64,000 nt of DNA from Planctomycetota bacterium (GCA_029260735.1 JAJDCR010000068.1:1-64000), one strand, 5' to 3'. Positions 515 through 63,946 are shown, counted from the first letter of the stretch. Made by a program: numbers and translations. Notes: generated by a model not told the origin, from the letters alone.

Positions 515-1891
515 ATGAAGAATCTTTCTTCGCAGAACATCCAAGAAGAAAAATATTTTATTACTTCCCTGAGAAAGAATTTCCAAGACAAAAAGAAAAT
601 CTTCCATCCAGAAGAAAAAGTATTTTATCAACAGTCCTCTATTGTAGAAAGAGATTTTCACTGGAGAATCGAAAGAGAAAAGAAAATCTCTTCTCTAGAT
701 TTCAAATCCCCTTTCAACGTAACTTTGGAAGCAAAATACCAAAAAAAATTTTCTACAAAATCTTTTTTTATTATCGCACACTTTTTGAGCCCTCCTCTTT
801 TTTATCAAAAAAGCAAAAAAATTCAGGCAATTCCTCCTTTAGGAAAAAAAGAAATAGAGCTTTATTGGAAAAATCTTTATTTACCTCAAAAATCTTACTC
901 TATCTTAGGTATTTATTCTCCTAGTGGATGGGAGAATCATCTTTTAGAAAATCCTCCTTCGTTGCCCTTGTGTTCTCTTATTCTGATATATAAAAATCAT
1001 CTAGGATGGCAGTTTCTCTCTCCAGAAACAAAACTTTCTTCTGAGATACTTCTTCTTTATAATCTTGATAGCTACAAAACAAAAAAAGAAAGAGTGCAAA
1101 ATCTAGTAGCAAAAAACCTTTCACAAAAAAGTGACTATATCCCAATAGAAAAAATTGTAAAAGAACTATCTATCCCTGACAGTATTTTTGAAAAACTAAT
1201 AGAAGAAATTTTAGTGGATAATCCAGACTTGGTTAGGGAGTTTTTCCAAGGAACAGAAATTTTAAGATATAGCCAGCTAGGAGGAACGACAATGTTTTTT
1301 CGTAAACGTAAAGCTAACTCAAAAGAAGAAAATTTTAATAATAAAACGATGAGCATGTTACAAAAATTAGACCAATTGTTAGCTCATAACAAAATCCAGC
1401 TACAAAAACTCCAAGAAGAAATTCTTGTACTCGAAAACCAAGAGCAAAGAGAAGTTGAAAAAATAAAAGAAGGTCATCTCTCTACAAGAGAAGAAAGTTT
1501 TTCTCTTCAAGACGTAAAACGACTTCGCAAACAAATTCAAAATTTAGAACAACGGGCTTCTATCCACGATAAAAATATAGATCATAATTTAAACATGATA
1601 TCACGAGTTCAAGATATAGAAGCAATGCAAATGCAAGGAGTAGAAGAAAGTGAGGTAGATGAAGTTGCCTATCTATTTGAAAAAGAGATGGATGATTTTC
1701 AAAAAAAGATCAGTGCCTTCAAATTAGTCGAAGTGAAAGAATCCGTTCTTTCTTTAGAGGATAAGTCAGAGCTAGAAAACCTCAAAGAAGAAATCATCTC
1801 CAACTCAAAAAAACAAACTCTAAAGAAAAAAGAAAGCAAAACAGTTCAAGAGGAAAACTCTTCTTCAAAAACAAGTTTTGAAATCCAGTGA
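515..1891 (+). CDS. Winged-helix-like plus coiled-coil protein, candidate ESCRT-III-like (CHMP7-like layout)
   Basis: A 458-residue, Lys/Glu-rich protein with no signal peptide. Residues 1-190 are not recognised. Residues about 190-260 look like a winged helix (IPIEKIVKELSIP followed by a second helix and a short wing). From residue 260 (MFFRKRK) a basic amphipathic start leads into a long helical hairpin to about 405, then an acidic tail. This hairpin resembles an ESCRT-III/Snf7 or IM30 (PspA/Vipp1) core. A winged helix in front of such a core recalls CHMP7. The start is set by AAGAAGG at 502-508. It is first of three genes with similar hairpins (gaps of 18 and 45 bases), so probably one operon. 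The gene is certain; the fold is inferred from pattern only. Confidence 0.6.
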   Translation: MKNLSSQNIQEEKYFITSLRKNFQDKKKIFHPEEKVFYQQSSIVERDFHWRIEREKKISSLDFKSPFNVTLEAKYQKKFSTKSFFIIAHFLSPPLFYQKSKKIQAIPPLGKKEIELYWKNLYLPQKSYSILGIYSPSGWENHLLENPPSLPLCSLILIYKNHLGWQFLSPETKLSSEILLLYNLDSYKTKKERVQNLVAKNLSQKSDYIPIEKIVKELSIPDSIFEKLIEEILVDNPDLVREFFQGTEILRYSQLGGTTMFFRKRKANSKEENFNNKTMSMLQKLDQLLAHNKIQLQKLQEEILVLENQEQREVEKIKEGHLSTREESFSLQDVKRLRKQIQNLEQRASIHDKNIDHNLNMISRVQDIEAMQMQGVEESEVDEVAYLFEKEMDDFQKKISAFKLVEVKESVLSLEDKSELENLKEEIISNSKKQTLKKKESKTVQEENSSSKTSFEIQ

Positions 1892-1909
1892 GCAGAAAGG
1901 AATAGTAAG

Positions 1910-2530
1910 ATGGGATTTTTTTCAGAACTTTTCCGCTCTAAAAAAATAGATCCTAAAGAGCTGGAAAATACACTCGAAGAATTGGGCAACTCGATAAAGA
2001 AGCAACAAATTCGAGCAAAAAAACTTATTCACCAGCAAGAGTACCTTCTTCAGTTATTAAAAAAAGCTCGTCAAAGCGGAGAAAGTTGGTTATTCGACCA
2101 GAAATGGAAAGAGCTACAAAAAAATAAACTAGAGCTTATGATAAAAACGAGGGAAATACAAATACTCTCTTCTGAGGAAATTGTCATAGAAAAATACAGT
2201 TTAAGCCAAGAGAGGATTTCTAGACAAGAAGGACAAAATAAAGCTCATCAACTCATTCAAAAAATAAAAAAAAGTGGCGTAGATATAAAAGAAGCCAAAG
2301 TTCAAATAGAAGAACAAGAGTATATAGAAGAGCTAGATGCCATTTTAAATATTAAAGAAATCAGCAATGATTATCCATTAGAAATAGAAGACGAAAACAA
2401 AGATCTTTTCATTCAAGAACTTGATGAAATCATCACCATGGAAAAAAGAGGAGACACAAAGGAGGTTGAAAGAAAAACTCAAAACCTTCAAAATAAGTGG
2501 AAAGAGGGAGAAATTAAAAATCTAGAGTAA
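1910..2530 (+). CDS. Coiled-coil protein, candidate ESCRT-III-like, second of trio
   Basis: A 206-residue protein. The start MGFFSELFRSKK is a short hydrophobic/basic helix like the membrane-touching N-terminus of Snf7/Vps2 and PspA proteins. A long hairpin follows (about 15-125) with the pattern LLKKARQSGE, then a Lys/Leu-rich second helix. The C-terminal third is acidic with short helices (EEQEYIEELDAIL, LFIQELDEII). The basic-to-acidic polarity, size and coiled-coil content match ESCRT-III proteins. It lacks PspA-type length. AAAGGAA precedes the ATG. It lies 18 bases after the first gene. Homology is a pattern-based proposal; a generic coiled-coil protein is the alternative. Confidence 0.55.
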   Translation: MGFFSELFRSKKIDPKELENTLEELGNSIKKQQIRAKKLIHQQEYLLQLLKKARQSGESWLFDQKWKELQKNKLELMIKTREIQILSSEEIVIEKYSLSQERISRQEGQNKAHQLIQKIKKSGVDIKEAKVQIEEQEYIEELDAILNIKEISNDYPLEIEDENKDLFIQELDEIITMEKRGDTKEVERKTQNLQNKWKEGEIKNLE

Positions 2531-2575
2531 GGTATTGATCCTCTATTCAGCAGGGTTTATAAGGAGAAAGGCTAA

Positions 2576-3157
2576 ATGAATCTTTTTAGGTCAAAAGAAG
2601 AGCGTAAAATGGAGCGAGAGATTCAAATCCGCAAAGGACTCAACGCCATTCGGCGCAACATCAAGAATTTAGAAAATAATGAAAAAGGTTATATAGAAAA
2701 AGCAAGGAAAGCTCTAGAGGTAGGAGATCAAAAGCAACTTCATTTTCTAAAAGACACTTTACTAAGAGTTCATATCCAAAAAAACTCTCTAGAAAGACAA
2801 CTACTATCGCTTGAAACAGCCATTCAAGTAAAAAATCAGACCGAAGCTCACGCCCAATTCATTCAGTCAATGAATTCTTTATCTAAAGCCGTCCACCTAG
2901 CTTTTGGGAAAGTAGACTTAGGAAAGTGTCAAAAAAACTTTCAACAGGCATTAACTCAAGCCGAGTCTCTCCAGGAAAGAATGGATATTTTTCTTGATGT
3001 CCAAGAAAAAACAAATGAAGAACCCAACTCATCTAGTCTAGATGAAGAAAGAATTATAGAAGAAATTGAAGCAAAAATTAATCAAGGATGGAAAACGTCT
3101 TTAGATAAGGAAATCGAAAAAGAAATGGGAGAAATCGAAAAGGAATTGAATGGGTAG
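2576..3157 (+). CDS. Coiled-coil protein, best ESCRT-III (Vps2/CHMP-like) match of the trio
   Basis: A 193-residue protein that follows the Vps2/CHMP layout closely. It has a short N-terminus with MNLFRSK, then a hairpin with ARKALEVGDQKQ at the turn. Vps2 has a K..(A)..G turn in the same place. Next come LLRVHIQKNSLERQLLSLETAI (helix 2), an AQFIQSMNSLSKAV helix matching the Vps2 'M..SM' region, a short helix, and an acidic end (DEERIIEEIEAKI). N-terminal basic and C-terminal acidic halves are as in autoinhibited ESCRT-III. I see no obvious MIM1 motif, and no Vps4-like ATPase lies in the window. A strong AAGGAG precedes the ATG. PspA/Vipp1-type membership of the same superfamily is the alternative. 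Confidence 0.6.
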   Translation: MNLFRSKEERKMEREIQIRKGLNAIRRNIKNLENNEKGYIEKARKALEVGDQKQLHFLKDTLLRVHIQKNSLERQLLSLETAIQVKNQTEAHAQFIQSMNSLSKAVHLAFGKVDLGKCQKNFQQALTQAESLQERMDIFLDVQEKTNEEPNSSSLDEERIIEEIEAKINQGWKTSLDKEIEKEMGEIEKELNG

Positions 3158-3254: not shown

Positions 3255-4805
3255 CTAACGAGCATATTCGATAATACGTGTTTCTCTTTCCAAAGATACT
3301 TTAATTTCTCCGGGGTAAGAAAGTTCTCTTTCTATTTTTTGAGCAATCTCATGAGCAAGTTTAATCGCTCGAGCATCGTCTATTTCTTCTGATTTCACAA
3401 CACAGCGAATCTCTCGCCCTGATTGAATGGCATAAGCTTGCTCTACTCCTTCAAAGGAAAGAACAATGTCTTCTAGTTGCTCCATACGTTTTAGGTGCCG
3501 GGCTAAGGCTTCTTTACGACTAGCTGGTCTCTTCAAAGCGACAGAGTGAGCAATTTGTAATAAAATAGCATATAAAGATTGAGCAGGAACCTCCTCATGG
3601 TGAGCAGCAATCGCATTGACAACTTCTAACTCTTCATGACAGCGCTTAGCAATGTCAGCCCCAACTTTCGCATGGCTTCCTTCTTGAAAATGATCCGCTG
3701 TTCGGCCAATATCATGAAGAAGAGCGCATCTTTTTGCCAAAGTAATATCTAGCCCCAGCTCTCCGGCTAAAATAGCGGATAAATAAACAACCTCTTCTGT
3801 ATGTTGGAGTAAATTTTGGCCTCCTACTAAATGAAATTTCATCTTTCCAATCAATTCAATTTGTCGTTCCTTCAGGTTGGAAATATTTGCTTCATAAGCA
3901 GCTTGTCGTCCGACTTCCATTACAATACTATGAATTTCTTGACTTGTATTCTCGACAACTTCTTCAATGCGCGCTGGATGAATACGACCATCGTTAACTA
4001 AGCGTTGCATTGACTCTCGAGCAATCTCACGCCGTAGGGGATCAAATCCTGAAACAACAATGACTCCTGGAGTATCATCAACAATAACATTTACCCCCGT
4101 AGCCTTTTCAAAAGCCCGAATATTTCTGCCATCTCGACCAATTACTCGGCCTTTCATTTCATCATTTGGGATATCAACATTAGAAACCACACTATCAGCA
4201 GTATGCTCAACAGCACAACGCTGAATGGCCATCAAAAGTATTTCCATCGACTTACGATTAGACTCTTCTCGGCAATGCCGCAAGTGCTTTTCTATGATAG
4301 CTGCGGCCTCCTGCTCCAATTCTACTTCTAATTTTTGCAGCAAACGCACAACAGCATCTTCTCGTGAAAGTCCAGCCACTTCACGAAGCATCTTAGTTTC
4401 TTCTTCTAAGAGCTTTTCTAAACGTTGCTGTTTTTTTCGAGCTAGGTTTTCTTCTTCGAGGAGCTTTTCTCGAAGCCCACACAGAGTTTCTTCGCGTTTT
4501 TCTAATTCCTCTGAGTGCAGAGTCAAAGTTTGTTCTTTTTCCTCTAACTCAGCTTCCCACTCACTGAGCTCTTCTTTTTTTGCATAGATCTCTTTTTCAC
4601 AGTTTTCTTTTCTCTGTAGAGTTTCATCCCTAGATTTTTGATCCGCTTCTCGAAGAACACGATCTGCTTCTCGATGAGCTTCAAATAAAATAGACCGAGC
4701 ATCATTTTTCGCTTTTTCTTCCGAAAAACGGAAATAGAGCTCTTGCAAAATAAATCCCAAAACTAAACCAGCCATAATCATGGCTATGTTAATCAAAAGT
4801 TCCAC
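3255..4805 (-). CDS. rny: Ribonuclease Y
   Basis: A 516-residue endoribonuclease that starts mRNA decay at the membrane. An N-terminal membrane helix (about 3-20) is followed by a long coiled coil (about 22-190). A KH RNA-binding domain carries GRVIGRDGRNIRAFE. The HD phosphohydrolase domain shows QHTEEV and LLHDIGR.ADH, with the EGSHA motif. Length and domain order match RNase Y. The start is GTG, with GAAAGG 8 bases upstream. It converges on the coiled-coil trio (97-base gap) and is transcribed alone. Confidence 0.96.
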   Translation of the reverse strand: MELLINIAMIMAGLVLGFILQELYFRFSEEKAKNDARSILFEAHREADRVLREADQKSRDETLQRKENCEKEIYAKKEELSEWEAELEEKEQTLTLHSEELEKREETLCGLREKLLEEENLARKKQQRLEKLLEEETKMLREVAGLSREDAVVRLLQKLEVELEQEAAAIIEKHLRHCREESNRKSMEILLMAIQRCAVEHTADSVVSNVDIPNDEMKGRVIGRDGRNIRAFEKATGVNVIVDDTPGVIVVSGFDPLRREIARESMQRLVNDGRIHPARIEEVVENTSQEIHSIVMEVGRQAAYEANISNLKERQIELIGKMKFHLVGGQNLLQHTEEVVYLSAILAGELGLDITLAKRCALLHDIGRTADHFQEGSHAKVGADIAKRCHEELEVVNAIAAHHEEVPAQSLYAILLQIAHSVALKRPASRKEALARHLKRMEQLEDIVLSFEGVEQAYAIQSGREIRCVVKSEEIDDARAIKLAHEIAQKIERELSYPGEIKVSLERETRIIEYAR

Positions 4806-5038: not shown

Positions 5039-5109
5039 ATGTAAAATATAAACATGAATACTCTCCCAACAAACTGATAGTGACGAAGATACTTTTAAAA
5101 GGCAACTAC

Positions 5110-6111
5110 ATGGAAATACCAAGAAAATTCAGCAAATATACCATCCTGTCCATTATCGGCCAGGGTTCTATGGGAACAGTTTTTAAGGCAGAACAAGACG
5201 TTATCCGAAGAATCGTTGCCATCAAAGTTCTACCTATAGAACTAGCCAAAGAAGATCCTCGTAAAGTTTTGCGTTTTGAATATGAAGCCAAATCTGCAGC
5301 TCGTCTTTTTCATCCCAACATTATCACCATTTTTGAAGTAGGTAAGCTCTCCCTCCCTCGTGATGATATAGACTATTTTGCTATGCAATACTTCAAGGGA
5401 GAATCCATGGCCAATTTAATTGAAGGCCGTAAGCTCCCTTTAATGGCGGCTCTCTCTATTTTTGAGCAAATAGCTAGTGCTCTACACCACGCTCACTACA
5501 AAGACGTAATCCATCGTGATATAAAACCTTCCAATGTTTTAGTCAACGGGGAATGGAACGCAAAGTTACTCGATTTTGGTATTGCCAAAATTCGTGAATC
5601 TCCCGACCTCACTAAAGTTGGATATGTTATTGGTAGCGCTCCTTACATGTCACCAGAGCAAGCACGAGGAGAAAAGGTGAGTGGGAGAAGTGATATTTTT
5701 TCTCTAGGAGTAGTTGTTTACGAAGCCTTCACCGGACAAAGAGCCTTTTATGCAGAAAATAAAAGAGATATGATTTTATCTCGCCAGGTTATGCATAAAC
5801 TTCCCAAAAAGGAACTTCCTACGAAGATGCGTCAAATCAACCCTGAAATCCCTCCCTACCTCGAAGAAATTGTTCATAAATGTATGCAAGGAGATCCTCG
5901 ACATCGATACCAAGATGCTGCCGAACTAGTAAAGGATATAACCATATGCAAACATTTATTACTGGCTGAAAGAAAGTTTTATAGTATTGTTCCCAAGCTC
6001 TATTATCAGAAAAAAAATCCAAACACAAAAAGAAACTTTTTGTATTCAGGAATCACCGCTGGTATCGTTTTACTTGTTGGAATCACTTTAGTTCTATTAG
6101 GAATTATTTAA
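5110..6111 (+). CDS. Membrane-anchored Ser/Thr protein kinase
   Basis: A 333-residue Hanks-type (PknB-like) kinase. It has the glycine loop GQGSMG (17-22), ATP-binding Lys39 in VAIK, HRDIKPSN with catalytic Asp137, DFG at 155-157 and SPEQ in the activation segment, so it should be active. A single C-terminal membrane helix (about 312-332) anchors it with the kinase in the cytoplasm. I chose the ATG at 5110 because AAAAGG lies 7 bases upstream; an upstream GTG at 5080 has no such site. The next gene starts 23 bases later and encodes an FHA-pseudokinase with the same C-terminal anchor, so the two are likely co-expressed partners. Confidence 0.93.
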   Translation: MEIPRKFSKYTILSIIGQGSMGTVFKAEQDVIRRIVAIKVLPIELAKEDPRKVLRFEYEAKSAARLFHPNIITIFEVGKLSLPRDDIDYFAMQYFKGESMANLIEGRKLPLMAALSIFEQIASALHHAHYKDVIHRDIKPSNVLVNGEWNAKLLDFGIAKIRESPDLTKVGYVIGSAPYMSPEQARGEKVSGRSDIFSLGVVVYEAFTGQRAFYAENKRDMILSRQVMHKLPKKELPTKMRQINPEIPPYLEEIVHKCMQGDPRHRYQDAAELVKDITICKHLLLAERKFYSIVPKLYYQKKNPNTKRNFLYSGITAGIVLLVGITLVLLGII

Positions 6112-6134
6112 AACCTGGAAAGGTTACTCAAAAC

Positions 6135-7421
6135 ATGGCTATATTAAGAATAGAAAGAGGACCTGGGGCAGGCAACACTTACGTTATTGACTCAGATGTC
6201 TCTCTAGGGAGAGATCCTTCCCAAGCCACCATTCACATCCCTGATACAAAAGTTTCCAGTAAACATGCTCTCATTTTACAAAAAAACAACACTTACTATG
6301 TTGAGGATAATAAAAGTAAAAATCATACCTACCTAAACGGTCGCCCTATTACTGAGCAAACTCAACTAGAGTCTGGTGATTATATTAGCTTAGGCCATAC
6401 TTGGATATATTTTGAAGAAGAACATGAGATTGAGCGTATTGGCCAAGAACTAGCAGGCTATGAAATTATACAAAGAATTGAGCAAGGGGGGGCAGGACAT
6501 CACTTCAAAGTTCGGCAGGTTGGCTTAGATCGAATTGTAAATCTCTACTTACTTCCCCCTAATATTATTCGAGCAAACCCTCATTTAAAAAAGAAATTCC
6601 GTCTTCAAGCAAAAGCTTTAGCAAAGCTAAATCATGAGAATATCGCTATTATGCTTGATTTTGAAGCAAAAGAATCCTGTCTTTTTTTAACTACTGAATA
6701 TGTAGAAGGAGAAACTCTTGCCGATATTTCTCTTTCAAATCCTCCGGCTAGCCGAGGTAAAAAGAAAAATGTCCCTTTAGATAGAGCTTTAGAAATTGGA
6801 AGAGGAATCGCCCAAGGTCTTGCTCATGCTCATAGTCAGGGCACTATCCACCAAGATATTAATCCGGACAATATTATGATTTGTGGGCCTAGGGTTATTT
6901 TGGGAGGATTTGGAGTAGCAGCTGTTTTTCTCGACTCGAAAGATAAGTTTTCTGGTTTGATTGGAAAAACAGAATACATATCTCCCGAACAAATCACTCG
7001 CAAAGAAGTAGATTATCGCAGTGACATTTACTCTTTAGGAGTGATTCTTTATGAGCTTCTTTCTGGGCAAGCCCCTTTTTATGGCGATAACCCAGAAGAA
7101 ATCATGGAAGCCCATCTCAATGATAGTCCTCCTGCTCTAACAAGTTTTAATCCAGACATACCAGCAGAGTTAGAAAAACTGGTTTACCAATGCTTAGAAA
7201 AAGAAAAAGAAAATAGACCCCAAGATATGGAATTATTAGCAAGTACTTTAGATAGCATACTTTTAAAGGAAAAAGCCTTAAATCTAAAGAAAACTCAAGA
7301 TATATATACTTCTCCATTAAAGTATTACATTGTGAAGGTGCTAAATACGTCTTTTTTTAGTTGGCTATTTCTACCTATTTTAAGTGTACTACTAGTTACT
7401 ATCTTCACCTTCTGTCGGTAG
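6135..7421 (+). CDS. FHA-domain membrane pseudokinase
   Basis: A 428-residue protein. The N-terminal FHA domain (about 1-95) shows LGRD, SSKH and NHTYLNG, the phosphothreonine-binding features. A protein-kinase fold follows (about 105-375), ending in a C-terminal membrane helix (about 406-428). The catalytic residues are lost. The VAIK lysine is missing (VNLYLL), HRD-K..N reads HQDINPDN with the catalytic lysine gone, and DFG reads GFG. SPEQ and the D..S.G helix remain, so the fold is probably intact. It directly follows an active kinase with the same topology. It may bind the phosphorylated partner through FHA and regulate it. Its 3' end overlaps the convergent gene by 30 bases. Confidence 0.9.
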   Translation: MAILRIERGPGAGNTYVIDSDVSLGRDPSQATIHIPDTKVSSKHALILQKNNTYYVEDNKSKNHTYLNGRPITEQTQLESGDYISLGHTWIYFEEEHEIERIGQELAGYEIIQRIEQGGAGHHFKVRQVGLDRIVNLYLLPPNIIRANPHLKKKFRLQAKALAKLNHENIAIMLDFEAKESCLFLTTEYVEGETLADISLSNPPASRGKKKNVPLDRALEIGRGIAQGLAHAHSQGTIHQDINPDNIMICGPRVILGGFGVAAVFLDSKDKFSGLIGKTEYISPEQITRKEVDYRSDIYSLGVILYELLSGQAPFYGDNPEEIMEAHLNDSPPALTSFNPDIPAELEKLVYQCLEKEKENRPQDMELLASTLDSILLKEKALNLKKTQDIYTSPLKYYIVKVLNTSFFSWLFLPILSVLLVTIFTFCR

Positions 7422-35490: not shown

Positions 35491-37161
35491 TTACTTCTGA
35501 TCTTGCGGAATCATTTTCTGAATCATGATATCTTTGTTTTTCAAGCGAACAACCAGTCCACCCTCTAAGGGCTTGCAGTAGCCCACAGGAATACTTCCCC
35601 CTGCAATCCATAAGTCCCCCCCAGCAAAAAAGATAGATAGCTCTCCGGTAAGAGAGAAATGAATTCTATCTTTTTTGATGGTGAACTTCATTTCTCCAGC
35701 AATAAGAGCATAGCTGTGCTCTTCTCCATTTTGTGGCCTTTCGATAAAGAATCCCGGTGATTTAGAAGTTTTTGAGCTTCCTCTCACCTCTACAGAATCG
35801 CCATCTACCGTTGTCACCACTAAAACGAGAACTTGAGCCACGACAAGACAATGAGTGCCTTCCAGAGAGAAGGGGGTTAAAGGAGGCATCGACTGAGAGT
35901 CCAAAGTTGTTCCATATCGACTTTCTAAATCGACCACCGTAATAAGTTTTTCTTGGATCTCAAAGTTTAAATGCTTCCCTGAAATTTGTTGAATCGCTTT
36001 TTCATTGCCCGTTTTAGGTCGCAAACGCAAACAAATGTCTTGTTTATCATGATCCATGGCATTGCGTCCTAGCTGTAGTTTATTACCGCCATAAACAAAC
36101 AACTCTTGGGGAGAACCAGAAATTGTTAACTTAGCTCGGGGCAATCTTTCATTAGAGTTAGAATAAATAGGATGAAGTTCTTTTTTATCCTTTGCCAGAA
36201 AATCACGAGAAGGTTCTTGCCTTTTGCTGGAAACAATAGTTTTAGCTATACTAAAACTGTCTAAATTCTGTTCCAAAGCTCTTAACATCTTTAATGCTGT
36301 AGCGGCATCTTTCGGTCGATCTTCGCGCCTTTTACTTAGCATTTGCTGAATAAAGTTTTCTATAGGAGGGGAAGTATTTTCCATTGGAGGGACAGGGCTT
36401 GCTGTATGTTGATTCAGGGTCTGCCAAACGGTTCTACCTGAAAAAGGGGGAGATCCCATTAAACACTCGTAAAAGACAATTCCTAGTGCATAAAGATCGC
36501 AACGAATATCCAAGCAATGTCCTAGTTCCACTTGAATTTGTTCGGGAGAAATGTAATGGGGAGTTCCTCTAATATCGTCTGTTTCGGTTAAAAAAGTTCG
36601 ATCTTCGGCAATGGAGCGCAATAAACCAAAGTCCGCTAACTTGAAATTTCTTTGATCATCAAAAAGTATATTCGCCGGCTTAATATCTCGGTGGATAAGT
36701 CCTTTTTTCTCAATTTCGACTAATCCTTCTAGCAACTGGCCGACAATTCTGACAGAATCTTCTTCAGGTAAAGAAGCTATGTCTAAAAGATCAACCAAAG
36801 AGCCCGACATCAACTCTGTCACAAGGTATAAGCGACCGTCTATGGCTCCCCCATCGTATGTTCTAATAATGTGAGGATGATCCAGCTCCAAAGCCAAGCG
36901 AATTTCACGGCAAAATCGACTTTGAGCTTGAGAATCTTTACTATAGCCAAAAAAATTTTCTCGAACCAGCTTTAATGCAACTTCTTTTTTTTCAGCATCT
37001 TCTGCCAAGTAAACGGTTCCTATGCCTCCCTCTCCCAGTAGAGATATAACTTTATACTTACCAAAATATCGGCCAATCATAACACTTTTCTTTCTAGCTT
37101 CTCCATTTTTCATTACAAGTTTAGTCTTAGGTGAGAAACTAAAAGTTTTTAGACATTTCAT
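35491..37161 (-). CDS. Ser/Thr kinase with C-terminal FHA domain
   Basis: A 556-residue soluble kinase. It has GEGGIG, Lys64 in VALK, HRDIKPAN with Asp159 and DFG at 177, so it should be active. Residues about 370-450 form an FHA-like domain (QLGRNAMD, ISGKHLNFEI, DLESRYGTTLD). Residues about 470-556 are a beta-rich tail. FHA may bind phosphothreonine on the kinase itself or on a partner. There is no membrane helix. The start is uncertain: ATG at 37161 is open, but ATG at 37080 (MIGRYFGKY) is also plausible; neither has a good ribosome site. Confidence 0.9.
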   Translation of the reverse strand: MKCLKTFSFSPKTKLVMKNGEARKKSVMIGRYFGKYKVISLLGEGGIGTVYLAEDAEKKEVALKLVRENFFGYSKDSQAQSRFCREIRLALELDHPHIIRTYDGGAIDGRLYLVTELMSGSLVDLLDIASLPEEDSVRIVGQLLEGLVEIEKKGLIHRDIKPANILFDDQRNFKLADFGLLRSIAEDRTFLTETDDIRGTPHYISPEQIQVELGHCLDIRCDLYALGIVFYECLMGSPPFSGRTVWQTLNQHTASPVPPMENTSPPIENFIQQMLSKRREDRPKDAATALKMLRALEQNLDSFSIAKTIVSSKRQEPSRDFLAKDKKELHPIYSNSNERLPRAKLTISGSPQELFVYGGNKLQLGRNAMDHDKQDICLRLRPKTGNEKAIQQISGKHLNFEIQEKLITVVDLESRYGTTLDSQSMPPLTPFSLEGTHCLVVAQVLVLVVTTVDGDSVEVRGSSKTSKSPGFFIERPQNGEEHSYALIAGEMKFTIKKDRIHFSLTGELSIFFAGGDLWIAGGSIPVGYCKPLEGGLVVRLKNKDIMIQKMIPQDQK

Positions 37162-54562: not shown

Positions 54563-57500
54563 CTACTCTTTTGGCAAAGTCACTCGAAGAAGAAAGCTTT
54601 CAGGCATTCCCAGTAACTCTGCTTGAAAAATATCACAATCCATCTTTTGTGGATCTAAGGTTCCTGACAGATGAGGGTCCCCCGCAACATTGTGACTCAA
54701 TACAAGGCTCTGCCCAGGACAAATTTGGAGCATCTGTTCGAGTACTTTCAAAGTGGTTCCAAAGTAATCCAAACGCTCATTGACGGTAGCAATGATACTC
54801 GGGCCATGGTGAACAGCGACACAAACATCTAGATTCTTTGTTTCCCCTTTATCATTCAACATAGACTGAAGTTGCAAAGCAGTTTTGACAGCAAGCGCTG
54901 TATCACTAAAAGTGGCTAGCACTCCTTCACTTACTGTCTTAACAATGACTCCCCCCTCACTTTGAATTTTATCTTCCAGAGCTTGAAAATACTCATAGAT
55001 CAAACGAAAAGCATTGTCATCATTTTTTTGTAAATAAAGCTCTTCTACCTTATCTAGGCGAGTCGCTAAAAAGGTCACAGTGGAGATACTAACCAGTTTG
55101 CCTGGGGAAAGAATTTCGTGGGGAAATAGTTGCCGAAAAATGGGCATAGCAATAGCTCGTTTTGCGGTCAATGCTTCTTCTCTTATAGTCGTTTTTTCGA
55201 TCCGAACAACAATCTCTTGTTCGAGATCATTAAAAACAGAAAAAGTTTGCTTTTGGATATCTAAAAATCGAGGAATTTCTTCTGGTAGGCCATTTTTTAA
55301 AGAGAGATCCCAACGCTGGGTAGGGGCATCGCCCTCCACTTGAAAAAAAACTTCAAAATCATTCTGCGGAGACCATATTTTATAATCTCCTGCTTCTAAC
55401 TTAAGATCAAACTCAACTCGGTCGCCTTTTAAAATGCGAAGTTGAGCGACAACATGAGGCAAGTGAGCGGGGCTACCGATGCAGTATACCCGAAGTTCAC
55501 TCTCTCGAACAGAAGAGTGAACCTGGAAAATCATTTCAATAGATTCATGGAAGTCTAAATCAAACTCTAAGCTACAAGCCTGACAGTGCCCATGAGAATT
55601 TATGGCTTGCAAAGTATCACGCAACTCAGAGGGAACTCGGCAGATAGGACATAGAATATCCCAAAGTAAGTTAAACAAACCAATTCTGGCCCCCTTCATG
55701 CAAGCCGTAACGATTTCTTCGGGATTCAGTTTTAAGCGCCGAGCCAAAAGAAGGGGACGTATCCGAGCAACTTCCTGATCCGAGGCTTTGCTAAGATAAT
55801 TTCCTAATCTCTCCGTCACTTCAGAAGAGACTCCTTCTTTGCCTAACTGACTTAAAAACATTTCCAGTTTCTTTTGACTAGCCGTCTTTAATTTTTTATT
55901 ATCTTCAAAAGGATCTTCCCAAGTCAGATTATTTTCTTTTTTTCCAATGACCTGGTCAATGCGCTGGTAAACTTGCTCTAAAGATCTCCTCGTTTGTGTT
56001 TTGACTTTAAGAACCGCTCCCATTTGAGCAAAAACTCCCCGAGGCTCCATGACGAGATTGTGGGTCAAAAGAGTTCCCCCTTCTGGACGAGGCTCCAACT
56101 GAACAACACTCGTGAACCACTTGAGAAAGCCTTTTTTGTATTCCCTCAGTACTCCAAACCTCTGCTCCTCAATCCACTCAAAGGCATGCTCTTGCCATTC
56201 GTGAACCACTCCATCAATGCGAGCTTTTCCGAAGCGGAGTAATCCTTTTTCAGGGTCCATCTCTGTAGAGTACTCGACCGGAGGAAGTCCAATCGCATGG
56301 TTTAACCTTTCTGTATTAGAAACATGAGGCCAAAGTTCTTTCGAAGAACTCTTTAATTCCCACTTTAAGTTAAATTCTAAACGTTTTTTCGGATCGCTTG
56401 CCAAATAGCGCTCTGTTAGAAGCTCAGAAGAGGCTTTACCGTGCAAAAGATTTTCCATCTCTCGGAGTATTTCCTGGGCATCTTCATAGCGCTCGTCTGG
56501 ATCTTTTGCCATGCATTTTTCCACTATTCGGACAACCGCTTCGCTCACTTCGGGATTTATCTCTTGGATAGAAGGAACAGCTTTGTTGTGGTGCATCGAA
56601 ATAAGAGCAAAAATACTCTCTCCTTGGAAAGGAGTCTCCCCTGTCAGAAGAGTAAACAAAGTTACTCCCATAGAATATATATCAGAGCGAGCATCGGCTT
56701 GTTTATTTCCAGAGCACTGTTCAGGAGACATGTAAAGAGGTGTCCCAATGATAGATCCCGGTTGAGTCAAATTGAGAGACTCTGTTTCCATAACGTGTCT
56801 GGCTAATCCAAAGTCAGATAGCTTAACCAAAGGAATTTGAGCCCCTTCGTTCATCATCTGTTCTAAATTCTCTTCTGGCCCCGTCAGAAGTATATTATCA
56901 GGCTTAATGTCTCGGTGGACAATTCCTCGGACATGAGCAGGCAGCAAAGCACGAGCAACATCGGCGAGAATGGTTAAAGCAAGACGCTCAGGAAGTTGCT
57001 TTCGCTGGCTCAAAAGCTGCCCCACTGTAACTCCTCTAACAAACTCCAAAACCAAATAGTGAAGACCTTTTTCTTCATTAATTTCCAACAAATTTACGAT
57101 ATAAGGGTTATTGACCTTAGCCATCAAACGAGCTTCTTTGTAAAATCGCTGAAGAGCACTTTTTTCTTTGACAAGATGAGGAGAAAGTATCTTTATGGCA
57201 ACAATAATGCTACCACAGTTGTCTTTGCCTTGGTAAACCGTTCCCATTCCTCCCTCGCCCAGTTTTTTCAGAATCTGAAAGCGGCCTATTTGCTTAGGCA
57301 TAGCAGTCTCTTCTTGGGTCGACAAGAACTTATTCTCTTCTTCTAAAACAGTTGTCGCAATAGAAGCTTCGGGAGATTTTTCCCCTTCAATTTGGAAAAT
57401 TATTTTTTGAATTTTTTTGTTTAAACCAGAAGCTAAAGGACGCTCACTAAAGTCTGGGTCTAACATTTGAGAAACGATTTTTTCTAAACTTGTTTTTACT

Positions 57501-58162
57501 TCTTGAGAAAGAGGAAAGTCAACAATGTATTCACTCAAAGGGCGGGTTTTCTTTTCTATAAGACAAGTTTCTTTTCCTGTAACCAACCAAAAAAAGATAG
57601 CCCCCAAACTATAGATATCTGCCGCTCTATTAGGTAGACCGTACGGCTCCCATTCAGGGGATTGGCAAAAACTTTTTCCCCTTTCCATTACCGTTTGGTC
57701 TAGATAAGCACTGACCCGGGTAGTTGAAAAATCTACTTTTATTGCCCCTGTTTTTGTCACATAGATCTCTTGGGGAGACAAACGACCATGGACAAGTCCT
57801 AGGTGATGAGCTTCTCTTAAGGCATCCAAAAGATGGCAAAAAACTTGGAGTTTTTCCAAAAAAGACCAAGTATTTCCTTCGACAAACTCCTCCAAGGTTT
57901 GCGCTTGTAACCACTCAAGAGCTAAACAAGGCCGAGGAGACTTAAAGGTATACTCTTCTATTTTCAGCACACAAAAGTGGGTTAATTGAGAAGCCAAGGA
58001 AATGTTTTTCTCTAGGATTCCCCAGTCTCGTTTGTCTAGACGAGAAGGTTGAAGCAAGCGTAGCTCTACTAAATGTCCTTTTTTAGGATGACGTGCTTGG
58101 TAAGAAACCCCATCTCGCCCTACACCTTGCTGAGACAGGAGTTCATAATCACTGATATCCAT
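54563..58162 (-). CDS. Pseudokinase-kinase-SRPBCC-cyclase-like fusion protein
   Basis: A 1199-residue soluble protein. A dead kinase domain (about 1-250) has VELR for VAIK, HGR for HRD and DFS for DFG. An active kinase follows (about 296-570) with GEGGMG, Lys324, HRDIKPDN (Asp418) and DFG at 450. Then come an SRPBCC-like domain (about 585-740), a C-x2-C pair of zinc-finger type (CPIC near 838, CQAC near 860), a DUF5939-like region, and a class III cyclase-like domain (about 1020-1190). The cyclase domain has lost its metal Asp residues (TVTFLATRLD; KTVSEGVLATF), so it is probably a regulatory pseudocyclase. GAAGAGGGA before the ATG at 58162 decides the start. Confidence 0.9.
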   Translation of the reverse strand: MDISDYELLSQQGVGRDGVSYQARHPKKGHLVELRLLQPSRLDKRDWGILEKNISLASQLTHFCVLKIEEYTFKSPRPCLALEWLQAQTLEEFVEGNTWSFLEKLQVFCHLLDALREAHHLGLVHGRLSPQEIYVTKTGAIKVDFSTTRVSAYLDQTVMERGKSFCQSPEWEPYGLPNRAADIYSLGAIFFWLVTGKETCLIEKKTRPLSEYIVDFPLSQEVKTSLEKIVSQMLDPDFSERPLASGLNKKIQKIIFQIEGEKSPEASIATTVLEEENKFLSTQEETAMPKQIGRFQILKKLGEGGMGTVYQGKDNCGSIIVAIKILSPHLVKEKSALQRFYKEARLMAKVNNPYIVNLLEINEEKGLHYLVLEFVRGVTVGQLLSQRKQLPERLALTILADVARALLPAHVRGIVHRDIKPDNILLTGPEENLEQMMNEGAQIPLVKLSDFGLARHVMETESLNLTQPGSIIGTPLYMSPEQCSGNKQADARSDIYSMGVTLFTLLTGETPFQGESIFALISMHHNKAVPSIQEINPEVSEAVVRIVEKCMAKDPDERYEDAQEILREMENLLHGKASSELLTERYLASDPKKRLEFNLKWELKSSSKELWPHVSNTERLNHAIGLPPVEYSTEMDPEKGLLRFGKARIDGVVHEWQEHAFEWIEEQRFGVLREYKKGFLKWFTSVVQLEPRPEGGTLLTHNLVMEPRGVFAQMGAVLKVKTQTRRSLEQVYQRIDQVIGKKENNLTWEDPFEDNKKLKTASQKKLEMFLSQLGKEGVSSEVTERLGNYLSKASDQEVARIRPLLLARRLKLNPEEIVTACMKGARIGLFNLLWDILCPICRVPSELRDTLQAINSHGHCQACSLEFDLDFHESIEMIFQVHSSVRESELRVYCIGSPAHLPHVVAQLRILKGDRVEFDLKLEAGDYKIWSPQNDFEVFFQVEGDAPTQRWDLSLKNGLPEEIPRFLDIQKQTFSVFNDLEQEIVVRIEKTTIREEALTAKRAIAMPIFRQLFPHEILSPGKLVSISTVTFLATRLDKVEELYLQKNDDNAFRLIYEYFQALEDKIQSEGGVIVKTVSEGVLATFSDTALAVKTALQLQSMLNDKGETKNLDVCVAVHHGPSIIATVNERLDYFGTTLKVLEQMLQICPGQSLVLSHNVAGDPHLSGTLDPQKMDCDIFQAELLGMPESFLLRVTLPKE

Positions 58163-58184
58163 AGAATCCCTCTTCAAAAACGAT

Positions 58185-59729: not shown

Positions 59730-60605
59730 ATGAAAACACTGAGTTTCACTTCCCCTTTAGAAATGGCTGCCTCTGAAAAATCTTGGGCTTGGTGGCAAGA
59801 AAGAAAACTTCAACACCAAGGCAATTTTTCAGTAAACCCCTTTCTCAAAGATTTTTCCCTAGTTCGACGTTACTTTGGCAAGAAAAGCATTGGTTTTTCT
59901 TCCTCCCAGGAAAAAGAATACCAGGAGATGGCTGGCTGGAAAGTCCCCTTTGCCCTTTGGAGCGAACAAAAAATAGCCCGAACTCAACTGCTTTTAGAAC
60001 TATCTAATTTATCTAATTTATCCCATTTATCAGAAACACTATATCAAGAAACCGTGGAAAAATGCTACTACTATGGGGATAATAACGAGCAGATTGCCGT
60101 TCTCCAATCACTCTTTTTGCTTCCCAACTGCTCGCGCTTTGTTTCTCTTGCTTTAGATACTATTCGAACAAATGTCATGACTGTTTTTACTGGCCTTGCT
60201 TGCGAAAACCCTTTTCCAGCGATCTGTTTAGATGAACACTCTTTTAACAACGTCGTTTTAAAAGCTCTCTTTTCAGAAGTCCCTCTGGGAGCCATTTTAG
60301 GTCTAAAGCAAAGACATAACGGCAGTTTAGCTGATATGATCCATGACTGGATGGATGAGCGCGAAGCCGCTAGGCGTCCTATTCCTACTGATATTTGGCG
60401 CATTTTATGCAACGATAAATCTCCTCGCACCCAAGAGCGAATCCGTCGTTATTTAAAAGGAGAGGACTCGGAACATCGCTATGGTGTGGCCTACTTTTTA
60501 AACGAAACTTCAAGCTTACTCTACCAGACAGAAATTATCCAGCAACTAGAACAAGAAAAAGACAACAAAATACACGCTTTACTAGAGCGTATCGTAGAGC
60601 CTTAG
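59730..60605 (+). CDS. eboA: EboA-domain protein
   Basis: A 291-residue helical protein resembling EboA, the first protein of the ebo cluster. Typical stretches are LQSLFLLPN, ACENPFPA and LDEHSFNNVVLKALFSEVPL. EboA has no known catalytic motif. The next gene follows 34 bases later. Divergent eboF lies across a 123-base shared promoter region. Assignment rests on family pattern plus the surrounding eboB/D/E/F genes. Confidence 0.85.
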   Translation: MKTLSFTSPLEMAASEKSWAWWQERKLQHQGNFSVNPFLKDFSLVRRYFGKKSIGFSSSQEKEYQEMAGWKVPFALWSEQKIARTQLLLELSNLSNLSHLSETLYQETVEKCYYYGDNNEQIAVLQSLFLLPNCSRFVSLALDTIRTNVMTVFTGLACENPFPAICLDEHSFNNVVLKALFSEVPLGAILGLKQRHNGSLADMIHDWMDEREAARRPIPTDIWRILCNDKSPRTQERIRRYLKGEDSEHRYGVAYFLNETSSLLYQTEIIQQLEQEKDNKIHALLERIVEP

Positions 60606-60639
60606 GTGCTTGGAAAGAAAACTAAGAAAGAAAAAGAAC

Positions 60640-61545
60640 ATGAAGATTTTTGATCCCCATATACACATGACTGCTAGAACCACAGATGACTATGTCGCTA
60701 TGGCCCAAGCAGGTATTGTCGCAGTTTGTGAGCCGGCCTTTTGGTTGGGGCAACCCCGAACTCATGTCGGAACCTACGAGGACTACCTTAAAACTATCAT
60801 AGGATGGGAGCGTTTCCGAGCTTCTCAGTTTGGAGTTCACCATTTTTGCACGATTGCCTTAAACCCTAGAGAGGCGAATAACTCCAAAATTGCTCAGGGA
60901 GTCATGGAGCTTTTGCCTTTATATTTACATAAAGAAAGCGTTCTGGGAATCGGCGAAATTGGCTTTGACGACATGACTGCTGACGAAGAAAAATATTTAC
61001 GTTTGCAACTGGAGCTAGCGAAAGAACACTCCTTACCTGTCATTGTCCATACCCCTCATCGCAATAAGAAAAAAGGGACAGAGAGATCCATTGCTATCAT
61101 GAAAGAAGTGGGAAATCAAGAAGAGCTAGTGGTAATTGACCATAACACCGAAGAGACTCTTCCCATTGTTTTAGAGCAAACAAATTGCTGGGCAGGCCAC
61201 ACGATATACCCACAAACAAAAATGAGTCGAAATAGAATGGTTGGTTTAGTTCAAAAGTATGGTGTAGAGCGTATTTTAATTAACAGCTCAGCCGACTGGG
61301 GAGTGAGTGATCCTTTAAATAGTATCAAAACGATTCAGCTCATGCGCGAAGCATCGATCAGTGAAAAACAAATCGAGACTCTTTTCTGGGATAATCCCGT
61401 TCAATTTTATCTCCCCAGTGGGAATCTTGATCTAAAAGAAATTCAAACTCCGCCTCAAATTGACCAAAGAAAATTTTGGGAAGGCAACAGCGTTCTGAGA
61501 GGACAAACTCCTCTGGTCGAAACAAACCAAGAGGAGAGCGAGTAA
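60640..61545 (+). CDS. eboB: EboB-like TatD-family metal-dependent hydrolase
   Basis: A 301-residue TIM-barrel amidohydrolase. The metal site is seen as DPHIHM (HxH), GEIGFDDM (Glu), VIVHTPH, VIDHN and SSADWGVSD (Asp). Ebo-cluster EboB belongs to this family. The substrate is not known. I chose the ATG at 60640 so that the conserved beta strand KIFDPHIH follows directly; an upstream in-frame codon at 60610 is less likely. eboD follows after 5 bases. Confidence 0.85.
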   Translation: MKIFDPHIHMTARTTDDYVAMAQAGIVAVCEPAFWLGQPRTHVGTYEDYLKTIIGWERFRASQFGVHHFCTIALNPREANNSKIAQGVMELLPLYLHKESVLGIGEIGFDDMTADEEKYLRLQLELAKEHSLPVIVHTPHRNKKKGTERSIAIMKEVGNQEELVVIDHNTEETLPIVLEQTNCWAGHTIYPQTKMSRNRMVGLVQKYGVERILINSSADWGVSDPLNSIKTIQLMREASISEKQIETLFWDNPVQFYLPSGNLDLKEIQTPPQIDQRKFWEGNSVLRGQTPLVETNQEESE

Positions 61546-61550
61546 TCATC

Positions 61551-62741
61551 ATGAAAACTAGGTCAATTGAGCAAAAAGTCGAAGTGAGCTTTGAGTACCC
61601 TGTCTGCTTTACAGAAAAACTCTTTGCTTTAGAGAACCCTCTTTTCCATAAAACCATAATGCGAGCGGGGAAAACTCGCCGTCACAAGCTTCTCTTTGTA
61701 ATAGATGAGGGCTTTGCTCAGTTTCACCCTTGTTTAGAGCAACAAATTTTGGATTATACAAAGCACTATTCCTCTGAGCTGGAATTAGTATCTCCTCCTA
61801 TATTCGTTTTGGGGGGAGAAGAGACTAAAAATCGCCCCGAGAATTGGGAAAAAATCTACCAAGCGATTGATCAGTACAAGATTTGCCGCCATTCTTTTAT
61901 TGTCGCTATCGGCGGAGGAGCTGTTTTAGACATGGTCGGCTTTGCCTGTGCTATTCCTCACCGAGGGATTCGTTTAATTCGCGTCCCAACCACTGTTCTC
62001 TCTCAAAACGATTCAGGAGTAGGGGTAAAAAATGCAGTCAATGGTTTTGCCAAAAAAAACTTCTTCGGAACTTTTGCTCCCCCCTTTGCCGTTTTAAATG
62101 ACAGTGAGTTTCTGACCACTCTTTCTGCCAGAGATTGGCTCTCGGGCGTTTCCGAAGCGGTTAAAGTAGCTCTCCTCAAAGACAAAGACTTCTTCCGCTA
62201 CCTTCAAAGAGAGGTCGATGCTGTCACTCACAGAGATCTTGACGTAATGGAAGAGATTGTTTTTCGCTGCGCGGCCTTGCATCTGGATCATATTCGAAAT
62301 GGAGGAGATCCTTTTGAGACAAACCATGCTCGTCCTCTTGATTTTGGACATTGGTCTGCCCACAAACTCGAAACCTTAAGCCAATACAAGATTCGCCACG
62401 GAGAAGCGGTTGCTTGTGGAATTGCTCTCGACACTTATTACTCCTATCTCAAAGGAATTTTATCTGAGGAAGATTGCTTAGAAGTTCTCCATTTACTCCA
62501 TAACCTGGGCTTCCCTCTTTATTACTCTCAGTTGGAAAGTCCGGAAATTTTCCTAGGCCTAAGGGAGTTCCAAGAACACCTAGGAGGTATTCTCAGTATA
62601 ACTCTACTACGCGGTATAGGAGAAGCTCTCCAAGTACACGAAATGGATGAAGAGAAAATCAAAGAAAGCATTCTCTTCTTGCGCAGCTGGGAGCAATCTC
62701 TCCCCAAAGAGGTTGCCCAAAAGGACGAAGTATGCAATTAA
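61551..62741 (+). CDS. eboD: EboD-like sugar-phosphate cyclase (3-dehydroquinate synthase family)
   Basis: A 396-residue NAD-dependent cyclase of the dehydroquinate-synthase superfamily. Visible are GGGAVLDMVGFACA (NAD binding), PTTVLSQNDSGVGVKN, and the zinc-binding pair FGHWSAHKLE and RHGEAVACG. The FGHWSAHKLE form is that of EEVS/DOIS-like secondary-metabolism cyclases rather than of aroB. It sits between eboB and eboE, overlapping eboE by 10 bases. This fits EboD. The product is unknown. Confidence 0.9.
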   Translation: MKTRSIEQKVEVSFEYPVCFTEKLFALENPLFHKTIMRAGKTRRHKLLFVIDEGFAQFHPCLEQQILDYTKHYSSELELVSPPIFVLGGEETKNRPENWEKIYQAIDQYKICRHSFIVAIGGGAVLDMVGFACAIPHRGIRLIRVPTTVLSQNDSGVGVKNAVNGFAKKNFFGTFAPPFAVLNDSEFLTTLSARDWLSGVSEAVKVALLKDKDFFRYLQREVDAVTHRDLDVMEEIVFRCAALHLDHIRNGGDPFETNHARPLDFGHWSAHKLETLSQYKIRHGEAVACGIALDTYYSYLKGILSEEDCLEVLHLLHNLGFPLYYSQLESPEIFLGLREFQEHLGGILSITLLRGIGEALQVHEMDEEKIKESILFLRSWEQSLPKEVAQKDEVCN

Positions 62742-63946
62742 ATTGTATTCCTCAAGCCCACTTGGGTTACTGCACCAACGTCCATCCAGGAGAAACCCTA
62801 GCAGAGGTTCAAGAAAACCTAACTCGTTATGTTGTTCCCCTGCGCCACAAAATCTGTCCTAACCAAAAATTAGGTGTCGGTTTACGACTCTCTTACCAAG
62901 CAGCAAAGGAGCTACAAGACCCCAAGCAAAGAGAACTTTTCCGTTCGTTTTGTCAAAACAACAATCTCTACATTTTCACAATCAACGGCTTCATCTACGG
63001 TCACTTTCACGGCAAAAGAGTAAAAGAAGAGGTCTATCTTCCCGATTGGTCCAACTCAAGGCGACTAGAGTACACCAATATGATGGCCCATATCCTAGTA
63101 GATCTTCTCCCCGAAAACATCTCTCAAGGAACGATCAGTACTTGCCCAGGAGGTTTCAAAAATGAAGTGGATAATCCTACGAGCAAAAAGCAAATTGCCC
63201 AAAATTTACTTCTCCATGCCTGTGAACTCTACAGGCTCGAAAAACAAACCGGAAAAAGAATTGTCTTGGCCTTAGAGCCCGAACCAAGTTGTCTTCTGGA
63301 AACAACTGACGAAACCATTGCCTTCTTCCAAGACTACCTCTACTCTGCCTCAGCAGTAGCCTTTCTCGCTCAGAAAATAGGAAGAGAAGAGTCTTTCTGC
63401 AAAACCTTTCTCCACTCCGTCCTAGGAGTTTGCTATGACACCTGTCACCTAGCTCTCGCCTACGAAAATGCTTCCGAATCTCTCCAGAAATTATCCCAAG
63501 CGCAAATTCCTATCGCCAAAGTTCATATTAGCTCCGCTCTCAAAGCAAGGTTCAATAACTCAGAAGATAAAGCTCCCCAATTCATCGAACAATTTCAAGA
63601 ACCCATTTATCTCCACCAAGTGATCGAAAAAAGGGGCTCTCAACTCAATCGTTTCACCGACTTACCTCTTGCCTTTGAGCACCTCAAGAAACAATCCTCT
63701 GAACCCATCGAATGGCGCGTTCATTTCCACGTACCTGTTTTTCTAAGAAAAATGGATAATGTCGAAACAACCCAGGACTACATCATTGACACCCTACGCG
63801 AAGTCAAAAAACATCAGCTATGCCAACACTTTGAGGTTGAAACCTATACCTGGCAAGTTTTACCCCCGCAGTACCAGAGTAGCGACCTAGTCTATTCCTT
63901 ACAAAGGGAAATGAAGTGGGCTTACCAGCAGTTGGAGAATTTGTAG
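62732..63946 (+). CDS. eboE: EboE metabolite-traffic protein (xylose-isomerase-like)
   Basis: A 404-residue TIM-barrel protein of the sugar-phosphate isomerase/epimerase fold, as in EboE. The start MQLNCIPQAHLGYCTNVHPG and later LALEPEPSC and GVCYDTCHLAL are family features. AAGGA lies 6 bases before the ATG, and the gene overlaps eboD by 10 bases, so translation is likely coupled. It is the last complete gene; no eboC (UbiA-type prenyltransferase) is seen before the window ends. Confidence 0.9.
   Translation: MQLNCIPQAHLGYCTNVHPGETLAEVQENLTRYVVPLRHKICPNQKLGVGLRLSYQAAKELQDPKQRELFRSFCQNNNLYIFTINGFIYGHFHGKRVKEEVYLPDWSNSRRLEYTNMMAHILVDLLPENISQGTISTCPGGFKNEVDNPTSKKQIAQNLLLHACELYRLEKQTGKRIVLALEPEPSCLLETTDETIAFFQDYLYSASAVAFLAQKIGREESFCKTFLHSVLGVCYDTCHLALAYENASESLQKLSQAQIPIAKVHISSALKARFNNSEDKAPQFIEQFQEPIYLHQVIEKRGSQLNRFTDLPLAFEHLKKQSSEPIEWRVHFHVPVFLRKMDNVETTQDYIIDTLREVKKHQLCQHFEVETYTWQVLPPQYQSSDLVYSLQREMKWAYQQLENL

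Follow-up and report, generated by a model that had tools for sequence, protein, structure and literature searches.

The combination of ESCRT-III and Vps4 has been placed only in archaea and eukaryotes (PMC10936438), and bacteria have been stated to be without a clear Vps4 (PMC7615534). For some of the archaeal ESCRT systems, SPFH and winged-helix partners have been reported in addition (PMC10936438). On the bacterial side, PspA and Vipp1 (IM30) belong to the same structural superfamily, of which the helical hairpin is the hallmark (PMC8281802), and AAA ATPases of a Vps4-like kind have been mentioned (ACB74714.1; OGG56892.1; PMC11237479). The same 2024 survey describes that Vps4-like ATPases were transferred to some bacteria with snf7 being displaced by an unrelated TPR/6TM gene, and it notes bacterial PspA/Snf7-AAA neighbourhoods in which TM-containing PspA/Snf7 proteins occur with transporters; neither Planctomycetes nor the operon described here is mentioned there (PMC11237479). 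Our literature search on Vps4, ESCRT-III and Planctomycetota found no paper, which does not exclude an unseen preprint.

The window analysed here, a stretch of 64,000 nucleotides from a Planctomycetota bacterium (GCA_029260735.1 JAJDCR010000068.1:1-64000), corresponds to contig C139 in a genome of 8.7 Mb. A run of plus-strand genes sits between the contig end and a convergent RNase Y gene (3255-4805):

515-1291, plus strand: A_N, a conserved accessory protein of 259 aa, here in frame with gene A
1292-1891, plus strand: gene A, a putative ESCRT-III-like helical-hairpin protein of 199 aa, assigned by fold and operon only
1910-2530, plus strand: gene B, a putative ESCRT-III-like helical-hairpin protein of 206 aa, whose short amphipathic start MGFFSELF is a possible alpha0
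2576-3157, plus strand: gene C, an ESCRT-III (Snf7/CHMP superfamily) homologue of 193 aa, as judged by profile and predicted fold

A sequence-only reading had proposed three adjacent long-helix genes on the same strand across 515-3157. Such a trio is indeed present, namely as genes A, B and C at 1292-3157, but the segment 515-1291 encodes the separate protein A_N and is not a coiled-coil gene. The short F/L-rich starts that had been pointed out can be read in the proteins (MFFRK in A, MGFFSELF in B, MNLFRS in C). The open reading frame 515-1891 holds two modules, A_N (residues 1-259) and then gene A, the latter with a start of its own at ATG 1292 that is immediately preceded by an AGGAGG ribosome-binding site. 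With no stop between the two modules, a fusion product of A_N and A is possible in this genome. The coding starts at 515, 1292, 1910 and 2576 all lie in the same reading frame, and A and B are parted by a stop alone.

In relatives, A_N is a gene of its own upstream of A (about 40 loci), with P32 invariant and G138, W165 and R193 near-invariant. By eye, the ~75 residues at its C-terminus resemble a winged helix, an identity that could not be demonstrated since searches of Pfam and of PDB families gave no match for A_N. Elsewhere in the window, an adjacent pair of Ser/Thr kinase genes is found at 5080-7421, one of them with an FHA domain (Pfam). By eye, further kinase-like open reading frames lie at 35491-37161 and 54563-58177, the genes at 59730-63946 resemble an ebo metabolite-transport cluster, and the contig end reads as antisense bacterial 16S.

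NCBIfam returned nothing useful for the trio, and the Snf7 model (PF03357) had 0 matches in the whole window genome at E<=1e-3. Since such single-sequence searches were too weak, family profiles were built; for gene C, the homologues were supplied by 14 of 59 related genomes and by 39 named contigs. Snf7 is matched by 15 of the 21 gene C family members (best E 9.4e-6), and every other family by at most two of them. The window's own C protein reaches 13.0 bits against Snf7 (gathering cut-off 27.3; E 0.08) and, when searched alone against the PDB, gave four weak matches, yeast Snf7 and CHMP2A among them. The C family profile, compared with 177,635 PDB sequences, yielded four matches at E<=10, all of which are ESCRT-III proteins (Snf7 three times, CHMP2A once). 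As only ESCRT-III proteins were matched and the CHMP2A alignment spans nearly the whole core of C (profile positions 18-147), the likeness to CHMP proteins that had been suspected from the sequence goes beyond chance.

The AlphaFold2 model of C (pLDDT 77.5) points in the same direction, with predicted helices at 7-49, 52-110, 115-148 and 154-192 that provide an alpha1-alpha2/3 hairpin, an alpha4 and a C-terminal helix. A Foldseek search with this model ranked CHMP2A first (probability 1.00, E 0.11), and further matches include CdvB2, CHMP3, CdvB, Asgard ESCRT-IIIB and CHMP1B. All E-values lay above 0.1, as often happens with extended helices, and the matches to C and to the combined A and B model described below also included other coiled coils and designed bundles. 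The acidic end that had been noted for C is kept across the family, as is a C-terminal amphipathic helix (LDxEIxxGLxEIExEL). This helix could represent an MIT-binding tail, although its resemblance to MIM motifs is an inference.

Genes A and B had to be approached differently. Among the fetched loci, 42 open reading frames homologous to gene A adjoin B, C or the ATPases described below. None of 22 A and 19 B members matched Snf7, the family profiles of A and B found no ESCRT-III protein in the PDB, and the B family had no Pfam match. In direct profile comparisons the hairpin of B was aligned with that of C, albeit weakly (P 0.002), and the comparison of A with C remained at background level. 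For structure prediction, A and B were folded as a single in-frame read-through chain in which the stop is read as W/Q, so that the junction is artificial (pLDDT 80.8). AlphaFold2 placed helices at 2-60, 65-114, 119-150 and 157-187 in A and, in the numbering of B itself, at 3-9, 15-56, 59-105, 109-122, 124-151, 162-179 and 183-198, the short first helix of B falling on MGFFSELF. Both proteins are thereby predicted to consist of two long helices with a short turn between them, a shorter helix and then C-terminal helices, an order of helices that is common to A, B and C. In a Foldseek search with this model, 19 of the top 50 matches were ESCRT-III, PspA or Vipp1 chains, none of them significant, and it is unresolved which half of the chain was matched. 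The earlier proposal that the trio is of Snf7/Vps2 type rather than PspA therefore stands for C, by profile and by a model that best matches CHMP2A, but not to the same extent for A and B, which have a fitting helix layout only. Their membership in ESCRT-III is inferred from predicted fold and operon, without a sequence match.

Since Snf7 has the same fold as PspA, and since PspA and Vipp1 are among the structural matches to the A and B model, one could also imagine that the trio represents diverged PspA/Vipp1 paralogues that act in envelope-stress protection, and that an AAA protein was recruited separately; PspA genes can form dyads or triads or adjoin AAA proteins (PMC11237479). However, the PspA_IM30 model (PF04012) was matched by no member of the A, B or C families, the PspA profile compared with those of A, B and C gave background level only, and a separate, genuine PspA is encoded in the very genome of the window (G000:C97). 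In addition, the conserved partner ATPases of the trio have MIT domains, which to our knowledge do not occur in PspA systems. This explanation is hence already disfavoured and appears unlikely to us. By sequence profile and predicted fold, gene C is a clear homologue of the Snf7/CHMP family (ESCRT-III) and not of PspA.

The partner ATPases become apparent in the relatives, where the gene order A_N-A-B-ATPase2-C-ATPase1-(SPFH protein) is found in about 40 Planctomycetota loci. Both ATPases carry an AAA module (E 1e-32 to 1e-42), and the Walker A/B and arginine-finger motifs are intact in 17 of 18 proteins. Along its entire length, the N-terminal profile of ATPase2 matched MIT domains of Vps4 from human and mouse (VPS4B, E 0.003); the only natural full-length PDB matches were these and ribosomal protein S20, the remaining matches comprising designed helical proteins and TPR proteins. 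For the N-terminus of ATPase1, the sole natural PDB match was an archaeal 'hypothetical p60 katanin' (2w2u, E 0.11), which we take to be the MIT domain of Vps4 from Sulfolobus. Between ATPase1 and ATPase2 the N-termini are homologous (hhalign E 1e-5), and some of those of ATPase1 weakly match TPR models too. Judged from these comparisons, both ATPases are MIT-AAA proteins with Vps4/CdvC architecture, the similarity to TPR being weak.

How these proteins should be named is less obvious. Residues 35-387 of ATPase1 from the window's genome align to positions 14-365 of the 370 in the NCBIfam CdvC model (E 4e-60), but the ATPases score about 135-218 bits and do not meet the equivalog cut-off of 650 bits. 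For most of them CDC48 scores are similar or higher, and the core is as close to CDC48/PAN. Vps4_C (PF09336) was found at E<=0.01 in six of nine ATPases scanned and above its cut-off in one (28.0 versus 21.3 bits). ATPase2 contains the motif NRPWD(L/I)DxAVLSRFEKK, which presumably resembles Vps4/katanin rather than Cdc48. As the core is equally close to CDC48/PAN and the CdvC cut-off is not reached, 'Vps4-like', and not CdvC, seems a fair name, given in the absence of a phylogeny that includes archaeal and eukaryotic Vps4.

This ambiguity leaves room for the idea of a convergent assembly, in which generic coiled-coil proteins and a Cdc48-like bacterial AAA protein with a TPR-like N-domain would act on a target other than a membrane. 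It would account for an ATPase core that is closest to CDC48 in most cases, for the weak TPR matches of ATPase1 N-termini and for the lack of family matches of A and B. It is difficult to reconcile, however, with the fact that most C family members match Snf7 independently, that ESCRT-III and MIT are two independent signals meeting in one operon, and that the genes are linked to a membrane-associated SPFH partner, a situation also known from some ESCRT loci of archaea (PMC10936438). We therefore regard convergence as improbable, though slightly less so than an origin from PspA.

The SPFH protein often follows ATPase1 or precedes A_N in the operons of relatives. A representative (L059:6412-7902, minus strand) combines a Band_7 domain with a beta-propeller-like C-terminus; its gene neighbours ATPase1 also in L016, L017, L026-L028, L065, L068, L076, L100 and L101, and lies upstream of A_N in L070, L073, L075, L077 and L078. 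Several loci deviate from the common layout. In L070, L071, L073 and L077, one or two diverged B-like genes replace B between A and ATPase2, which suggests up to four hairpin subunits in this sub-group, and L071 and L077 additionally encode a small membrane protein between A and ATPase2. By eye, an ATPase1 homologue in L036 (from genome G011) has an apparent tandem pair of MIT-like repeats, a protein of 383 aa whose N-terminus is MIT-like and stands alone is encoded between B and ATPase2 (L082:4332-5483), and in one clade a sugar/lipopolysaccharide-kinase-like gene separates ATPase2 from C (L095:7067-7876, L087:7121-7939). In genomes that belong to different families, homologous small lipoprotein-like genes occur near C, either between B and C or between ATPase2 and C (L019:3764-4348, L020:1742-2344, L026:10041-10637).

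That a Vps4-like ATPase with an MIT domain might be encoded elsewhere in the genome had been anticipated, and an intact ATPase1 of 392 aa was found on a separate contig (G000:C86); in most relatives the ATPases are located inside the operon. On this contig, ATPase1 is directly followed by a gene of the SPFH/beta-propeller-like kind, whose Band_7 match (E 2.5e-5) is above cut-off. Since the same pair follows C in other genomes, the system is split rather than missing in the window's genome. ATPase2 was not found in this assembly, which is, however, only 83% complete. ATPase1 and C are on different contigs in two further carriers as well (G013 and G043).

Across the phylum, 54 of 392 genomes, spread over 37 of 265 genera, carry gene C, in a single copy each and without intermediate scores. 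The operon recurs in about one in seven of the planctomycete genomes sampled; 86% of them lack the system, which is therefore not essential phylum-wide. Within the set of 59 genomes, ATPase1 or ATPase2 occurs in all 14 that bear C and in one of the 45 that do not, the lone exception being G011 with a completeness of 66%; this co-occurrence largely reflects linkage, with three cases unlinked. None of the carriers has FtsZ, but almost the entire phylum lacks it as well (two weak matches in 59 genomes, none over the cut-off), so that its co-occurrence with C is uninformative. Planctomycetota-type labels are attached to 34 of the 39 named contigs. The others are labelled 'bacterium', Proteobacteria, Hydrogenedentes or Sumerlaeota; the genomes that correspond to two of the contigs at least, L065 and L076, are placed in the same phylum.

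As every named carrier is a metagenome-assembled genome, it has to be considered that archaeal or eukaryotic contigs were binned into planctomycete assemblies. Contamination of this kind would, however, have to explain diverged sequences in 54 genomes from 37 genera, always in a single copy, and loci that in part reside within very long contigs (2.45 Mb for L091, 0.88 Mb for L093). The window itself contains RNase Y, Ser/Thr kinases of bacterial type and the 16S-like end already mentioned. We thus consider contamination very improbable, and by far the least plausible of the explanations discussed.

We regard the locus as a strong candidate for an ESCRT-III/Vps4 system in bacteria. We assign a probability of roughly 0.78 to the reading that A, B and C represent the polymer-forming half of a membrane-remodelling machine of the ESCRT-III/Vps4 type, for which neither polymerisation and scission nor a cellular role has been tested. 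Our observations comprise the conserved and linked gene set, the Snf7 homology of C, the MIT-AAA architecture with intact motifs and the helix layout that A, B and C have in common; polymerisation, membrane binding, binding of tails by MIT domains, ATP-driven disassembly and the cellular process, be it division, vesicle formation, repair or engulfment of prey, are inferred. In such a machine, C and probably A and B would co-polymerise via their hairpins on the cytoplasmic face of the membrane, with the amphipathic start of the subunits providing the membrane contact. One or two AAA ATPases may then hold the acidic, amphipathic C-terminal tails with their N-terminal MIT domains, and their ATP hydrolysis would extract subunits and thereby lead to constriction or scission, and the SPFH/beta-propeller protein and A_N might serve as recruiting or anchoring factors.

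Planctomycetota have complex membranes and divide without FtsZ, and some lineages engulf prey. One could speculate further that this bacterial phylum possesses an ESCRT-III/Vps4 machine that is complete, is driven by ATP, consists of several subunits, has two MIT-AAA ATPases dedicated to it and functions in FtsZ-less division or in vesicle or endocytosis-like scission, and that derives from an ancient bacterial lineage or an early archaeal transfer. This extension is tentative, and we hold it to be somewhat less probable than its opposite. The presence in Planctomycetota of a conserved operon for a Snf7-type protein, two further hairpin proteins and MIT-AAA ATPases would in itself break the boundary by which the combination of ESCRT-III and Vps4 is restricted to archaea and eukaryotes. 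Two questions become open to testing through the operon, namely if remodelling by ESCRT-III under ATP consumption takes place in bacteria, and if the pairing of Vps4 and ESCRT-III predates or crossed the archaeal-bacterial divide. What is new here, as a candidate, is that a system of the ESCRT-III/Vps4 type, with two ATPases and with subunits not recognised so far, occurs in a further domain of life; prior art for it is partial (PMC11237479).

Compared to bacterial PspA/Vipp1, with which it shares the superfamily, the operon lacks a PspA_IM30 match, encodes several different subunits together with dedicated MIT-AAA ATPases and coexists with a PspA in the same genome. With the eukaryotic ESCRT-III proteins (Snf7/CHMP4, Vps2/CHMP2 and Vps24/CHMP3), gene C shares its match to Snf7/CHMP2A along the core as well as the hairpin, alpha4 and acidic C-terminal helix, and the ATPases have the MIT domain and AAA module of Vps4 and, less certainly, a Vps4_C-like end. 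In contrast to the eukaryotic system, ESCRT-0/I/II are not recognised, sequence identity is very low and MIM motifs are only suggested. The archaeal Cdv system (CdvA/CdvB/CdvC) and other archaeal ESCRT-III/Vps4 loci likewise combine several ESCRT-III-type subunits with an MIT-AAA ATPase in one locus. Unlike these, the present operon has subunits A and B that are unrecognisable by sequence, no CdvA-like gene was found, and its SPFH protein is fused to a beta-propeller-like C-terminus; it is, moreover, bacterial, and in many genomes it carries two different MIT-AAA ATPases per operon.
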